Positions 28,912 to 53,713 of a DNA stretch of 64,000 bases are shown in pieces. A program made the translations under genes and the position numbers. A model generated the notes under the pieces. That model made no database searches. It was not told where the DNA came from and saw nothing but the letters and a program-made list of their open reading frames with translations. Origin of the DNA: Nostoc sp. UHCC 0926 (GTDB lineage: Bacteria > Cyanobacteriota > Cyanobacteriia > Cyanobacteriales > Nostocaceae); assembly GCF_028623165.1 (NCBI RefSeq), contig NZ_CP117768.1, positions 1,922,001 to 1,986,000 of the forward strand, written 5' to 3'. Numbering within the stretch: the stretch's first letter is position 1; each line of letters begins with the position of its first letter.

Positions 28912-29853
28912 ATGACACCTCCAGAAAACCAAAACATCATTGAAGAAAGAAAAGAACTAATTAAAGAAGTTCTAAACGCTTACCCCGAAAAAGCTAAGAA
29001 AAAGCGGGAAAAGCACTTAAACGTATACGAAGAAGGTAAGTCCGATTGCGGCGTTAAGTCTAACATCAAATCCCTGCCTGGTGTCATGACCGCTCGTGGT
29101 TGTGCTTACGCCGGTTCTAAGGGTGTGGTCTGGGGTCCTATTAAGGACATGATCCACATCAGCCACGGGCCTGTAGGTTGCGGTTACTGGTCTTGGTCTG
29201 GTCGTCGTAACTACTACATCGGCACCACAGGTGTTGACAGCTTTGGTACAATGCACTTCACCTCCGACTTCCAAGAACGAGATATCGTCTTCGGTGGTGA
29301 CAAGAAACTTACCAAGCTAATCCAAGAACTTGATGTACTTTTCCCCCTCAACCGTGGTGTTTCCATTCAATCTGAATGTCCCATCGGTCTAATTGGGGAT
29401 GACATCGAAGCTGTTGCTCGCAAGACATCGAAAGAAATTGGCAAGCCAGTTGTACCCGTGCGTTGCGAAGGCTTCCGGGGTGTTTCCCAATCTTTGGGTC
29501 ACCACATTGCTAATGACATGGTTCGTGACTGGGTGTTCACCAGATCAGACCAAGCCAAGAAAGACGGTACACTTCAGTTTGAAGGTACTCCTTATGACGT
29601 AGCCATCATTGGTGACTACAACATCGGTGGTGATGCTTGGGCTAGCCGCATCCTGTTAGAAGAACTCGGCTTGCGCGTAGTCGCTCAATGGTCAGGTGAT
29701 GGCACCATCAACGAAATGTTGATGACCCCGAATGTGAAGATGAACCTCATCCACTGCTATCGGTCGATGAACTACATCAGTCGTCACATGGAAGAAGCTT
29801 ACGGTATACCCTGTACGAAGTATGATTTAATGTGTTGTGATACCAGGATTTAG
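28912..29853 (+). CDS. nifD: Nitrogenase MoFe protein alpha chain, segment 1 of 3
   Basis: The N-terminal about 300 residues of NifD carry the P-cluster cysteines ([30 protein letters not shown]), the [11 protein letters not shown] active-site His region and the FeMo-co Cys in [17 protein letters not shown] start at ATG 28912 (MTPPENQ) with AAAGG upstream; ATG 28879 would add 11 residues. Native sequence ends at the repeat GTATACCCTG (29804-29813). The remaining codons, ...[13 protein letters not shown], come from element 1. Joined with 36221-36681 and 53725-53891 it gives 509 aa. Confidence 0.97.
29804..29813. repeat. Left direct repeat (att site) of nifD element 1
   Basis: GTATACCCTG is identical to 36211-36220. 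The crossover falls in the codons for Gly-Ile-Pro-Trp of NifD. Only with the right-hand flank does the codon TGG (Trp) and the conserved [10 protein letters not shown] follow. Confidence 0.93.
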
Positions 29854-29924: not shown

Positions 29925-31331
29925 ATGAAAAGCAAGGCACAGGACGTTTTTGAGGATTTCACTCCGCCAGCATCTACCGATGGCAGCTATCTAGGAACGC
30001 AGAAACAAATGAAAGCTACTCGGCAGCATCTGGAACGCAAGTTTGAGAAAGGTTTGGCAGACACTAGGGCCCGTCTAAAAGCGGCTAAGGTGAAAGTGGG
30101 CTTGGTCGTGGCCCGGGACACCATTCAATTGCAAGCATCCCTACCAATCAAGCCCGGCGATCGCGACACTAAAGGAACTGGTTTTAAGCAGTACAAGATT
30201 TCGCTAAACATTCCTACAAGCTTGGACGGGTTGAGAACAGCTGAGGAAGAGGCCAACGAGCTAGGCAAGCTACTCGCCCGTAAACAGTTTGAATGGACTG
30301 ACAAATATCTGGGTAAAATAGCTAAGGTCAGCAACAGATCCCAAATCCTTGGTGATGTTTTAGAAGAGTTTGAAACTGAGTATTTCAAAACACGCAAGTT
30401 AACAGAAAAAAGTAAACACACTTTCTTCTATTACAAGGACTATTTACGGCGACTGATTGGGCTAGATACTTTGTTGACTCAACCGGAGATTGATAAAAGA
30501 CTTGGAGAGTTGACGGGGGATTCTGCCAAGTACAGCGCTGTTAAATCATTGAAGGTTTTAAAATCAACTCTTAATTTAACTAGTTTCACCCTCGAACAAT
30601 TTAAAGCTACACAACCCAAAAGTCAGGCTAGGGATATTCCCAGTAATGAGGATATCATCAAATATCATGAATCTTTTCATCAGTACTCATTGACTAGGAG
30701 CTTGACAATCAAAAAGAGTTGTTTAGACAGTTGGAAAATGTGGAAATGGGTATATGGAATGCTTGCTACTTATGGATTACGCCCAAGAGAACTGTTTGTA
30801 AATCCTGAGATTGATTGGTGGTTGAGTCCTGAGAATAAAGATAATACATGGAAGGTTCACCCAGATACCAAGACTGGTTATAGGGAAGCTTTACCGCTAC
30901 ATCCTGAATGGGTTTACTTGTTTGATTTAAAAAATCTAGAGCCTTTGGAACTGTTAAAAGCTCAGACTGATGACAGAACTAGTTTTACAGATATTAACAC
31001 TATTCGGGTTAATTGTTCATCATGGTTTAGGCGGGTAAATATTCCGTTTACGCCCTATGATTTACGCCACGCTTGGGCTATTCGAGCGCATATGATGGGC
31101 ATTCCAATTAAAGCTGCTGCTGACAATTTGGGGCATTCTGTAGAGATTCACACTGAGATTTATCAGAAGTGGTTCAGCTTGGAGAACCGGAGGAAGGTAA
31201 TTAAGCAGGCGGTAGATAAAAAAGATGGCATCGATGCGTTGAATGAGGAGAATGCACGGCTAAGGGCTGAGGTGGAATATCTCAGGCAAGCTTTGGCACG
31301 GCATCAAATCAGTGAATTGCTGTCTACTTGA
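29925..31331 (+). CDS. XisA-like tyrosine recombinase of element 1
   Basis: This 468-aa recombinase is homologous to the one of element 2 over nearly its whole length (shared blocks such as LPIKPGD, FEWTDKYLG and YDLRHAWAIRAH). Catalytic-type residues sit in GLRPREL (Arg), KTGYREALPL, DLRHAWAIR, LGHS and IYQKWFS (Tyr). It has a full N-terminus with STDGSYLG and ends in a coiled coil (LNEENARLRAEVEYLRQ). It lies 112 nt inside the left border, reading inward. It presumably excises element 1. Confidence 0.93.
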   Translation: MKSKAQDVFEDFTPPASTDGSYLGTQKQMKATRQHLERKFEKGLADTRARLKAAKVKVGLVVARDTIQLQASLPIKPGDRDTKGTGFKQYKISLNIPTSLDGLRTAEEEANELGKLLARKQFEWTDKYLGKIAKVSNRSQILGDVLEEFETEYFKTRKLTEKSKHTFFYYKDYLRRLIGLDTLLTQPEIDKRLGELTGDSAKYSAVKSLKVLKSTLNLTSFTLEQFKATQPKSQARDIPSNEDIIKYHESFHQYSLTRSLTIKKSCLDSWKMWKWVYGMLATYGLRPRELFVNPEIDWWLSPENKDNTWKVHPDTKTGYREALPLHPEWVYLFDLKNLEPLELLKAQTDDRTSFTDINTIRVNCSSWFRRVNIPFTPYDLRHAWAIRAHMMGIPIKAAADNLGHSVEIHTEIYQKWFSLENRRKVIKQAVDKKDGIDALNEENARLRAEVEYLRQALARHQISELLST

Positions 31332-31756: not shown

Positions 31757-32335
31757 TTATAGAGAGCCGATTGACAATAGTGTTAGCTCCTTAACAAAAG
31801 CGTCAATCGCTTTACCAGCGCTGGATTGTCTGCCCATTTTCAGCTTGGCAAGAGTGCGAACGCGGGTTACTTCATAGTGTGGCGCAAAGGATGCACCTGA
31901 TCTGAGTAGCTGGTTTACTCTCTCTAGTTCCTGAATGTATTCTTGTCTCCTTTCAAGACCATTCGTCAAAGTGTCCTTCTCTCGCTTAACGTCAGCCAAT
32001 TTCTCCACTAGTTCTTCAAGTACCTGCTCTAACTCCTTCTCTCCCTTGCGGGAAAGCTTGAGACTACTTTCTAGGCTCATAACTTGGGACTCTAACTGGT
32101 CGATGGTTTCACTGTTCGCTACAGTTGACTCAATGTTGCTTGGCTGCCCGGATGCACCTGTTGTCTGTAACTTTTGCCTGAGTAACTGGTTGTCAGTTTC
32201 AGCAAACTGTAATTGCTCATCCTGAATTCTAATTCGTTGCTGTAACTGGTAAATGATTTCGCTGTTCGCTACAGTTGAGTCTTCATTGCTTTCTTGCCCG
32301 GTAGTGCTATTATCCTCTACTACCGGGCTTTCAAT
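31757..32335 (-). CDS. Coiled-coil frame, probable -1 frameshift extension of the RHH gene
   Basis: This frame is open for 192 codons from 32335 to the stop at 31757 but has no ATG, GTG or TTG until ATG 32080, in its middle. The upstream half is clearly protein-like: two copies of STVANSE-(I/T)-I-(Y/D)-QL and IRIQDEQLQFAETDNQLLRQ. The lower half is a coiled coil (SRKGEKELEQVLEELVEKLA) ending in a basic region. It lies in the -1 frame of the RHH gene at a G_GGA_AAA heptamer, so a 310-aa fusion is likely. A start at 32080 would give 107 aa. Confidence 0.7.
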   Translation of the reverse strand: MESPVVEDNSTTGQESNEDSTVANSEIIYQLQQRIRIQDEQLQFAETDNQLLRQKLQTTGASGQPSNIESTVANSETIDQLESQVMSLESSLKLSRKGEKELEQVLEELVEKLADVKREKDTLTNGLERRQEYIQELERVNQLLRSGASFAPHYEVTRVRTLAKLKMGRQSSAGKAIDAFVKELTLLSIGSL

Positions 32336-32341
32336 TTTCCC
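32296..32341 (-). promoter_or_regulatory. Candidate -1 programmed ribosomal frameshift signal
   Basis: On the minus strand, the heptamer G_GGA_AAA (32341-32335) is in the zero frame of the RHH gene. It is followed by a 6-nt spacer and a hairpin with perfect 10-bp arms GCCCGGTAGT and ACTACCGGGC and a 13-nt loop. The zero-frame TAG lies within the first arm. This is the standard layout of -1 frameshift sites. An indel in the GGGGAAAA run is the main alternative. Confidence 0.65.
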
Positions 32342-32688
32342 CGCAGTTCCTCCAGTTGCGATCGCACTTCTGCTAGACTCTCTTCTATACGTTTGTCTAT
32401 CAAGACTTTAGTATTGTCTATATTTCTTTCTATACGCTTGTCTATCAGGGCTTCAGTACTGTCTAGACTCTCTTTTATACGCTTATCCACCAGGGCTTCA
32501 ATACTGTCTAGACTATAATTAGTGTTAAGGGTAGAAGAGGTAGAGAGAATCTGTTTTGCATCTAGACAACTCTTGATGAACTGAAGAAGAATAGCCGAAG
32601 CGGTAGAGTTACTACCTGTTGCTAGTGCTTTGAACGATTCCCACTCTTCAGGCTCAATCCGAAAAGTAGCTAGTGTTTTATCTGCCAT
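32320..32688 (-). CDS. RHH-type DNA-binding protein with repeat coiled coil
   Basis: The zero-frame product is 122 aa. Residues 1-45 (DKTLATFRIEPEEWESFKAL, then ATGSNSTASAILLQFIKSCL) resemble a ribbon-helix-helix/CopG-like family seen on cyanobacterial plasmids. Then come three to four copies of a roughly 16-residue unit, (S)LDS-x-EAL-(I/V)-DKRI-(K/E). It ends ...ELRGKLKAR. The last codons hold the frameshift heptamer, so this may be the shorter of two products. Confidence 0.75.
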   Translation of the reverse strand: MADKTLATFRIEPEEWESFKALATGSNSTASAILLQFIKSCLDAKQILSTSSTLNTNYSLDSIEALVDKRIKESLDSTEALIDKRIERNIDNTKVLIDKRIEESLAEVRSQLEELRGKLKAR

Positions 32689-32801
32689 TTTATCTAGACT
32701 CTTATCTATACTTATTTAAGCCTATCTTAAATCTATATGTTTGTCTATCAATATATTGCTTACTATGTCTAGACCCAAGTGGTGATCATGAGGTGTTCAC
32801 C

Positions 32802-33104
32802 TTGCACAACTACCTTGCACAACTACCTTGCACAACTCATGCACAACTACCTTGCACAACTCCGTCGCCCTCTAGAGTGCTTATCAGACAATCGTTTTCA
32901 GCAATGGGTAACGGAGTTGTGCAGTTGTGCATCACTTTTTTGAGTTTTTTTCTACTTGTAATTCCGTTTTTTTCTGAGTTTCTGGCATACTTAGATGCAC
33001 AACTCCTTTATAACTAGACTGAGATATATACCATACAAGGCTTACGGGCTGCTATATAGTTGTGCATCGGAGTTGTGCATGGGTTGTGCATGGGTTGTGC
33101 AATC
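32802..33104. repeat. Iteron-like TTGCACAAC repeats in both orientations
   Basis: Five direct TTGCACAACTACC-type units start near 32802, 32815, 32828, 32839 and 32852 (mostly 13-bp spacing). Inverted GTTGTGCA units lie at about 32915-32935 and 33059-33104 (the latter in a run of four), and another direct copy is near 32995. No gene is supported here. The layout resembles plasmid iterons or partition sites. Confidence 0.75.
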
Positions 33105-36210: not shown

Positions 36211-36220
36211 GTATACCCTG
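36211..36220. repeat. Right direct repeat (att site) of nifD element 1
   Basis: GTATACCCTG is identical to the copy at 29804-29813. The base upstream differs (C here, G at the left), so the perfect repeat is 10 bp. Confidence 0.93.
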
Positions 36221-52180: not shown

Positions 52181-53482
52181 TTAACTACACTTATAAACAA
52201 ACTCCATTTTCAACTTTTCAATTTCAAGCTTTAACTTATCATTCTCCATCCTCAAATTAGCATTTTCCTCCCTAATCAACTCAACTTCATTCTTTTTACT
52301 CAACGCCTGATTAATTGCCAACTTCCGCATATCCAGCGAAAACCAACGCTGATAAGTTTGGGTGTGAACCTGCACACTATGCCCCAAATTATCTGCTGCC
52401 GCTTTAATTGGTATCCCCAAAATATGCGCCCGAATTGCCCAAGCGTGGCGTAAGTCATAGGGCTTAAAATCCAATCCAATTTTACGAAACCACCAACTAA
52501 CTCGCTGTGTTAATGCCGTTATCTCCGCATGATTAGTGTTGTCTTTTTTAGCGATCGCACTCCCCAACATTTCTAAATATTTAGGATTTCTCAAATCAAA
52601 GTCCGAAATCCATTGCCTATATAGCGGTAATGCTTCTCTTTCCCCAGTCTTACAATCCTTATGAACTTTCCATGTCAAATCTGCATTTTCTTTGCTTAAC
52701 CACCAATCAATATCAGGATTAATAAAAAGCTCCCGTGGACGTAAACCAAAAACTGCTAACATTCCATAAGTCCAGCGCCAAAGCTGCCAGCTATCTTGAA
52801 CATTTTGATTAACTTGATTACCTCTGCTATTCAGGTAATCTTCAAACTTAATAATTCCTTCATATACTTTCACATCTGTAGGTATATTACGGGAATTATT
52901 TTCCGGTATCTTAGAATATTTAGATAAATCAATTTCGATTTTAAATGTCAAGCAAAATGCAGATATCGCCCTAGCTGCGTTATACTTAGCCCATTCTTTA
53001 TCGATTTGTTCAATTGAACTTATCAGATTTTCCGCAGTCGCTAAATCTTTGACATTAGTGAATCGTTTAGTGCGGGAAAAGTAATAAAAAAAACTATGTT
53101 CGCTTTTGGTAGTCCGTTGATGAGTTTTAAAATACTCTTCTTCAAATTGTTCGAGTAATTCTCCTATGGTTTTAAAATCTTTTCTAATTGCCTCATTTCC
53201 TAAATATTTATCATTCCACTCAAAAGTTTTACGAGCGATTAATTTCCCTAATTCATAAGCTTCTTCCTCAGCCGTCTTGAGTCCATCCAAGTTAGCAGGA
53301 ATATTCAAGCTGAGATTGTATTGCTTTCTCCCAGTACCATTGCTATCTTTGTCTCCCGGTTTAATTGGTAACGTCGCCCGTAACTGCAAACTTCCATTCG
53401 ATTCTCTAATTGTCACCTTTGCCTTTGCAGACTTCAAACGCAGATTAACTTTCTCTAATTCTAGTGGTACTTTCGTTCTCAT
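52181..53482 (-). CDS. xisA: XisA nifD-element site-specific recombinase
   Basis: This 433-aa tyrosine recombinase catalyses excision of the nifD element at GGATTACTCCG during heterocyst formation. The motifs are GLRPRELFINPDIDWWL, KTGEREALPL, YDLRHAWAIRAHILGIPIKA, LGHS and TYQRWFSLD (Tyr). A coiled-coil tail follows. From ATG 53482 (MRTKVPLELEKVNLRLKSAK) it lacks about 40 N-terminal residues present in the element 1 enzyme. Upstream in frame, CSSLQAQQQKEH looks family-like before a TGA, so the 5' end may have been altered. Confidence 0.95.
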   Translation of the reverse strand: MRTKVPLELEKVNLRLKSAKAKVTIRESNGSLQLRATLPIKPGDKDSNGTGRKQYNLSLNIPANLDGLKTAEEEAYELGKLIARKTFEWNDKYLGNEAIRKDFKTIGELLEQFEEEYFKTHQRTTKSEHSFFYYFSRTKRFTNVKDLATAENLISSIEQIDKEWAKYNAARAISAFCLTFKIEIDLSKYSKIPENNSRNIPTDVKVYEGIIKFEDYLNSRGNQVNQNVQDSWQLWRWTYGMLAVFGLRPRELFINPDIDWWLSKENADLTWKVHKDCKTGEREALPLYRQWISDFDLRNPKYLEMLGSAIAKKDNTNHAEITALTQRVSWWFRKIGLDFKPYDLRHAWAIRAHILGIPIKAAADNLGHSVQVHTQTYQRWFSLDMRKLAINQALSKKNEVELIREENANLRMENDKLKLEIEKLKMEFVYKCS

Positions 53483-53713
53483 GTGTTCTTTTTGCTGCTG
53501 TGCTTGCAGAGATGAGCAAAAAAACGGGTGATTTCTAATCGCCCTGGCTCAGGACAACATTTAGATGATGCGTGAGTCCGAAACCTGATTATGCATCGCT
53601 GTTTTTTAGCCTATATTTAGCCTAAAAATAAATGTGTTATCAGCGAACAATGTTTAGCACAGACATTGCTTACTGCAAACATTAGGCTGGTTAGAGCTAT
53701 TGAACCACAAAAA

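Follow-up and report, generated by a model that had tools for sequence, protein, structure and literature searches.

Whether a gene that is split between two overlapping reading frames can still deliver both of its parts in one protein is the question raised by this locus. The window, meaning the whole 64,000-nucleotide stretch that was analysed, corresponds to G000:C3:1922001-1986000 of an 8.3-Mb genome. The preliminary description had proposed that an RHH gene on its minus strand is extended by a candidate -1 programmed frameshift into a coiled-coil fusion, and had suggested a comparison of homologues.

The split gene and its setting in nifD

The nifD gene of the window is interrupted at 29804 by an element of ~6.4 kb, which was recognised as a nifD element by the direct repeats within nifD and a putative tyrosine recombinase gene (Table 1). 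This gene, which is convergent with the split gene, we take to be XisA-like from its place, and the element is presumably the 'position 895' nifD variant, near codon 299 when counted from the usual nifD start. In the parts of Hilton et al. 2016 (PMC4874684) that were consulted, four such nifD elements carry the recombinase gene at the element start in the reading direction of nifD, and the window likewise has its recombinase at the start and in the same direction as nifD. Frameshifting is not mentioned in those parts, and neither 'plasmid' nor 'pDU1' occurs in the main text. Another gene of the window, related to the recombinase and 48% identical to it, lies at 52220-53509 (-) and probably belongs to a second excision element. 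Directly 3' of the split gene, the segment 31619-31753 contains three imperfect copies of a 43-nt repeat in which CACATATGAGC is frequent.

Table 1. Coordinates, within the window, of the split gene, its slip signal and the surrounding element.
Feature	Position	Strand	Remark
Left direct repeat GTATACCCTG	29804..29813	+	presumed element boundary in nifD
Tyrosine-recombinase-like gene	29925..31331	+	Pfam Phage_integrase E 1.5e-4, below its cut-off
-1 frame ORF, 192 codons + stop	31757..32335	-	coiled coil and C-terminal domain
Conserved C-terminal domain	31781..31891	-	consensus PDYEAIRDRxLxKLKxGRQSAAGKAIDAFIKEL
Hairpin right arm ACTACCGGGC	32296..32305	-	perfect 10-bp stem with left arm
Hairpin left arm GCCCGGTAGT	32319..32328	-	contains zero-frame stop TAG 32322-32320
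Zero-frame ORF, 122 aa	32320..32688	-	RHH-type N-domain (by family profile) and long helix
Spacer TTGAAA, 6 nt	32329..32334	-	between heptamer and stem
Slip heptamer G_GGA_AAA	32335..32341	-	zero frame; read off sequence
SD-like GGAGG	32349..32353	-	7 nt 5' of slip heptamer; read off sequence
TATAGAC/TCTAGAC-type repeats	32691..32774	-	directly 5' of start codon; putative operator or centromere-like sites
Right direct repeat GTATACCCTG	36211..36220	+	presumed element boundary in nifD

The 3' end of the zero frame reads CTG CGG GGA AAA TTG AAA GCC CGG TAG, and the elements of the signal follow one another as GGAGG AACTGCG GGGAAAA TTGAAA GCCCGGTAGT (13 nt) ACTACCGGGC, the 13 nt being the hairpin loop. 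The heptamer had been described in the RHH gene's own frame, which was exact, and the spacer and perfect hairpin overlapping the TAG were reproduced to the base. The -1 frame proved open over the length claimed for it; its earliest ATG, GTG or TTG is codon 85, at base 32080 as described, and the repeated STVANSE motif is present in it twice. The products, previously given as 122 and about 310 aa, were computed as 122 aa for the short form and 118 + 192 = 310 aa for the long one. Folding of 91 nt at the junction gave a z of -2.46, with 2 of 200 shuffles equally good, and the 54 nt starting at the heptamer gave -18.5 kcal/mol with a z of -5.24, which 0 of 200 shuffles equalled. Given that an in-frame X_XXY_YYZ was found at just 10 of 4642 other codon positions in related N-parts, and that 42 other loci are alike, the arrangement is not a product of chance.

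Slip sites, stems and coding frames among relatives

The -1 part of the window was used as a query over 217 genomes of the family and matched in 55; two matches carried names, both Nostoc. The profile of the C-terminal domain matched in 78 of the 217 family genomes and in 31 of 388 in the order sample. Among the 54 listed C-domain loci, 41 showed an N-ORF in a frame joinable by a -1 shift with a slip site near its stop, and together with L216, from another family of the order, and the window they constitute the 43 loci of frameshift layout. Some N-ORF in -1 relation is present in 47 loci, six of which were left uncounted. A second L143 row and L172 were dropped from the 41-locus table of slip sites and stems as chance A-rich sites, and L218 was left uncounted, having a slip-like site yet no match to the model R1 below E 1. 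Two of the 43 have damaged N-parts: L146 holds a remnant and was excluded from the dN/dS and codon-position counts while being kept for the stop and heptamer counts, and L162 is truncated and was kept. The outcome named beforehand as refuting, one continuous frame without heptamer and hairpin, was not the general one, as most close relatives are two-frame with a covarying hairpin; single-frame relatives also exist.

Five slip sequences were observed across the 43 loci, namely GGGAAAA (27), GGGGGAG (9), GGGAAAG (3), GGGGGAA (2) and GGTAAAG (2), and the zero-frame stop lies 0-15 nt past the heptamer in every one. There are 26 distinct combinations of heptamer, spacer and arms, and since a large share of the junctions are close relatives of one another, the 43 loci do not represent 43 independent events. 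At the 11 G_GGG_GAG/GAA sites re-pairing of the A-site tRNA in the -1 frame is imperfect, so that mainly the P-site tRNA would be relied on, and the GGTAAAG sites (L170, L171) allow good re-pairing by the A-site tRNA only. Of 35 distinct segments 5' of slip sites, 24 contain GGAG, AGGA or GAGG, and the other 11 have no SD-like motif. The mean SD pairing energy was -6.7 upstream of slip sites compared with -2.1 elsewhere in genes.

The best stem begins 6 nt past the heptamer in 34 of 41 loci and 5-8 nt past it in the other 7. When the stem was anchored, 9 of 9 pairs formed in 33 of the 43 loci and 6-8 pairs in the remaining 10, with arm pairs such as GCCCGGTAG/CTACCGGGC, GCCTAAGAG/CTCTTAGGC, GCCTGAGAG/CTCTCAGGC and GCCTAGAGG/CCTCTAGGC. 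When misses were counted as well, the 17 distinct arm pairs were 90.8% paired; the highest of 2000 shuffles reached 85.0%. In the set A4, which comprises 19 of the 43 junctions in rows picked by the analyst, 98.2% of the stem cells pair, a value reached by 0 of 500 shuffles. Within these 19 chosen junctions, two-sided changes occur in five of the nine stem pairs, the covariation measure was 0.448 against 0.231, and sliding the partner by 1-3 columns reduced the pairing to at most 49%; the measure of further pair types equalled the shuffles (10 vs 9.9). The stem of L216 has 13 bp. Folding of the L119 stem was no better than that of shuffles (z -0.74, 43 of 200), 3 of 200 shuffles were as good as the L179 stem, and the stems of L157, L163, L169 and L177 are weaker and have no R1 match below E 0.01. 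The loop length is divisible by three in 40 of the 43 loci, in line with translation through the hairpin in the -1 frame.

The preliminary description had judged the first part of the -1 frame to be clearly protein-like. In relatives the C-part is under coding selection, with a median dN/dS of 0.31 (416 usable of 537 pairs); the N-part gave 0.33 (161 usable of 172 pairs). A third-position excess was present in both parts. Stop codons in the C-part number 293 and 358 in the two other frames and 0 in the -1 frame (~4100 codons each), the last value being true by construction. A zero-frame heptamer, a structure 5-8 nt downstream and a conserved coding -1 frame are found together, which are the features of a -1 signal under the rules taken from the consulted parts of PMC4066793.

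Frameshifting weighed against other explanations

Two frames could also result from an indel mutation or a sequencing error in GGGGAAAA that split one gene, and the existence of single-frame relatives, among them L126 as a single-frame version in a nifD element, speaks in its favour. However, 43 loci share the split; five different slip sequences are used among them, their stem covaries, and coding selection operates on both sides of the split. We therefore consider this explanation excluded by the conserved split and the stem covariation in relatives, and leave it a negligible probability.

The single-frame relatives comprise L126, L155, L156, L161, L172 and most of 40 further regions. In L126 the heptamer and frame are altered, giving one ORF ...SLGK|IESSV... 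that matches exactly the predicted junction, and the hairpin is partly retained (25.4 bits with R1). On the plasmid contig L156 a single frame covers the two parts and R1 has no match, and in L181 and others an RHH-type head is fused straight to the C-domain. Such relatives show that the family normally includes proteins in which the two parts are united. R1 matched below E 0.01 in 1 of 34 single-frame loci (L126) as opposed to 20 of 24 frameshift loci outside the model rows, these 20 including some with stems identical to model rows. Another 17 of the 75 loci scanned were fragments or unclear, of which L158 and L207 match below E 0.01. The single-frame genes of RHH-type head and C-domain at L181-L191, L193-L201 and L205 are dispersed solitary genes, mostly without shared neighbours and present in at least two copies in some genomes; no neighbour, the gene itself aside, was common to more than five of the 33 loci compared.

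A further explanation is that the C-part is a separate gene, expressed through internal initiation or coupling at the zero-frame stop. Some ATG, GTG or TTG is held by 38 of the 43 -1 ORFs, and L171 has an ATG at codon 8, which speaks for this explanation. Of the 43 loci checked, L122, L123, L137, L164 and L177 contain no start codon anywhere in the -1 ORF, and internal initiation can consequently not be general. The late first start codon of the window, the joining of the same two parts in single-frame relatives and the conservation of slip site and stem likewise argue against a separate gene, which we regard as very improbable.

Transcriptional slippage on the short G/A runs would generate mixed mRNAs with no slip of the ribosome. 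Runs of 3-6 G are present at the site, accompanied in most loci by runs of 3-4 A, which speaks for this mechanism, but transcriptional slippage usually requires longer runs. The runs here are short and variable among relatives, while the hairpin 6 nt downstream, a feature of ribosomal -1 signals according to the consulted parts of PMC4066793, is kept. Slippage of this kind thus appears to have only a few chances in a hundred.

The frame relation, the covarying stem, the missing start codons and the single-frame relatives favour ribosomal frameshifting. The candidate signal of the preliminary description is supported by the frame relation, slip site and covarying stem among relatives, and the gene is very probably decoded by -1 programmed ribosomal frameshifting. 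Our best overall reading, to which we give a probability of about 0.9, is that frameshifting yields two forms, a short one that binds DNA and a long one extended by the coiled coil and the conserved tail. Most ribosomes would stop at the TAG and release a short RHH-type DNA-binding protein. A fraction would slip on G_GGA_AAA and complete a long protein with the coiled coil and the conserved C-terminal domain, the slip being aided by the hairpin and probably also by the upstream GGAGG. We infer the slip, its efficiency and the production of both forms from sequence.

The designation of the gene as RHH depends on the family profile, the zero-frame ORF of the window alone having no RHH match in Pfam. 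The top PDB matches of this profile, A5, built on 20 N-termini, were AvtR (E 0.0033) and a CopG-family protein (E 0.0057), with further RHH proteins at E 0.02-1.3 and a designed helical repeat protein at E 0.02. RHH-type Pfam families each match at most 3 of the 20 A5 members. The N-part model contains a helix at 60-121 with high pLDDT, as well as helices 13-24 and 28-43 with low pLDDT and no strand in the RHH region. The -1 part was modelled with helices 17-60 and 67-145 as a coiled coil, followed by the C-terminal domain as two helices, 151-170 and 172-190. Searches of Pfam, NCBIfam and the PDB with the C-part or C-domain returned weak coiled-coil or chaperonin matches only and no family, and Foldseek with models of both parts returned no match at E <=0.001. 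An IS-type OrfA/OrfAB transposase was considered and rejected, as the -1 part has no transposase Pfam match and is a coiled coil in the model.

DNA-binding heads, upstream repeats and a possible role

Several kinds of N-part were identified, namely heads of RHH type, a fusion to GIY-YIG (Pfam E 2.9e-6) and a domain of YWYGYRK type that belongs to no family. Within 200 nt 5' of the start, MADK heads are accompanied by TATAGAC/TCTAGAC repeats, FSFR/ISFR heads by TGT(A/C)(T/G)ACA, FRCP heads by TGTAAGACA and YWYGYRK heads by GTTACAT. The TATAGAC/TCTAGAC type is common to the window, a plasmid of pDU1 size (L145) and L137. The analysis took 38 of the 43 loci, leaving out L146, L162, L164, L169 and L216; the start of L129 was corrected by hand, and L159 was placed with the GIY-YIG proteins for its FRCP-type head, though it lacks a GIY-YIG domain. 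Two or more copies of the own-class motif were counted in 31 of 38 loci, and two or more copies of a foreign one in 0 of 38; none of 20,000 label permutations reached the observed total. Motifs and groups were set after inspection and these numbers are therefore overstated, with the segregation still nearly complete. No clear repeat of their own was seen upstream in L132, L139, L141, L151, L163, L177 and L179. The DNA-binding part is exchanged among relatives together with its upstream repeats. About ten GTTGTGCA-type direct repeats, iteron-like, are also present 5' of the gene at window positions 32803-33094; this type was not a top repeat in the 21 other loci compared.

Through their shared N-domain both forms would bind the repeats 5' of their own gene, the long form would add bridging or anchoring through its coiled coil and tail, and the slip, by setting how much of each form is made, would adjust autoregulation or plasmid-type maintenance. 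Since neither part has a structure match and the C-domain has no family, we infer the function from the layout alone. The layout resembles that of single-protein partition systems or of operator-binding systems. By analogy, a maintenance or centromere-type role is possible, at somewhat less than even odds. The combination seen in partition systems, i.e. a head (by profile) with putative DNA binding, a coiled coil and upstream repeats, is present. The pSK1 Par, R388 StbA and KfrA-type proteins have a DNA-binding head, a long coiled coil and repeats 5' of their own gene, and occur on small plasmids. This layout is shared here, the differences being the RHH-type or other head, the unrelated tail and the predicted frameshift-made isoforms. 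No ParA was noticed on inspection of the ORF lists of L156 and L171; on the Fischerella plasmid L119, however, one gene is annotated as cobyrinic acid a,c-diamide synthase, and ParA-type ATPases frequently go by this name.

The main rival to a maintenance role is that the protein regulates the neighbouring tyrosine recombinase and thereby controls excision. In the genus, the gene adjoins the recombinase (at least 90% identity) in 14 of 14 genomes, 13 of them frameshifted, including the window, and one in frame, and several plasmids also bear a pDU1-type tyrosine recombinase. Control of the recombinase is nonetheless rather unlikely, considering that the plasmid contig L171 has a RepA and an ATPase homologue and no match to either recombinase, that the DNA-binding part varies while the recombinase is 90-95% identical to that of the window, and that the repeats matching the DNA-binding part precede its own start codon.

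The module is found in nifD elements and on small plasmids. Seventeen loci are nifD elements with this recombinase, and 16 of these show the frameshift layout. A RepA of pDU1 type is present on the plasmid-type contigs L125, L134, L145, L156, L170 and L171, and terminal overlaps were found in 5 of the 7 plasmid-type contigs tested. A tblastn search of the plasmid collection with the C-part gave four records; in viral contigs an exact-pattern search detected no cassette, and no relatives were confirmed. The plasmid pDU1, which lies behind the Nostoc/Anabaena shuttle vectors, is NC_008440.1, where the N-part alone is annotated (WP_011666306.1). This record and NC_019685.1 (L238, L118) are both 6361 bp and from Nostoc PCC 7524; RepA is named in one of them only and the -1 part is annotated in neither. 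More tentatively, the frameshift cassette may act as a portable joint: heads and cognate repeats would be exchanged around a slip site, hairpin and tail that stay, the ratio of head-only to head-coil-tail protein would be fixed, and the replicon would be maintained or silenced. The developmentally excised position-895 nifD elements, sharing the module with pDU1-type plasmids, would then be chromosomally trapped plasmid relatives.

To our knowledge, few bacterial genes beyond transposases, phage genes, dnaX and prfB use programmed frameshifting. Signals of dnaX and IS3-family type consist of an SD-like element, an X_XXZ_ZZN heptamer and a hairpin. The signal predicted here shares with them the heptamer, the spacing of 5-8 nt, the hairpin and, in most loci, the SD-like element, and would likewise direct a short and a long product from one mRNA. 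The present gene is however neither a polymerase subunit nor a transposase, and its family is centred on G_GGA_AAA with interchangeable DNA-binding domains. IS1 InsA/InsAB' and IS3 OrfA/OrfAB likewise pair a short DNA-binding form, here predicted, with a long -1 form in a mobile-element protein, whereas the -1 part here lacks a transposase match, and its model consists of a coiled coil followed by a small tail of helices. The family was not reported in titles and abstract beginnings of the open-access frameshifting literature, and the GeneTack supplements could still contain it. A large, covariation-supported cyanobacterial family that is present on pDU1 opens questions on the role of unexplained nifD-element genes and on the plasmid descent of those elements, and its five slip sequences with one stem position provide a natural test of frameshift signals.

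The signal is not confined to this family. Applied to the window's own genome, R1 found the window, the L143 locus and two further copies, which belong to another RHH gene whose -1 tail has 32 aa. These lie at G000:C3:1127006-1127056 (+) and 6612413-6612463 (-) (L223, L224, L232, L233), each in a stretch of 11.9 kb; the two stretches are inverted relative to one another and 100% identical, and one copy is near the contig end (a possible assembly duplicate); cas12k (NCBIfam E 2e-272) and CRISPR-like 37-nt repeats are located nearby. A genus search with the second RHH protein gave 13 matches, of which at least 10 carry the signal. These 10 fall into two groups, ~41% identical, with differing slip sites. 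In the phylum sample, R1 with stricter filters matched in 7 of 214 genomes. RHH-type genes that are followed by a frameshift cassette but have different -1 tails were seen in L228 (G237), L229 (G043) and L230/L231 (G321), representing three families; one tail has 31 aa, and two are longer and coiled-coil-like, ending in SLRDVEVILDYLESLQN or ADLADVETFLEILGSES.
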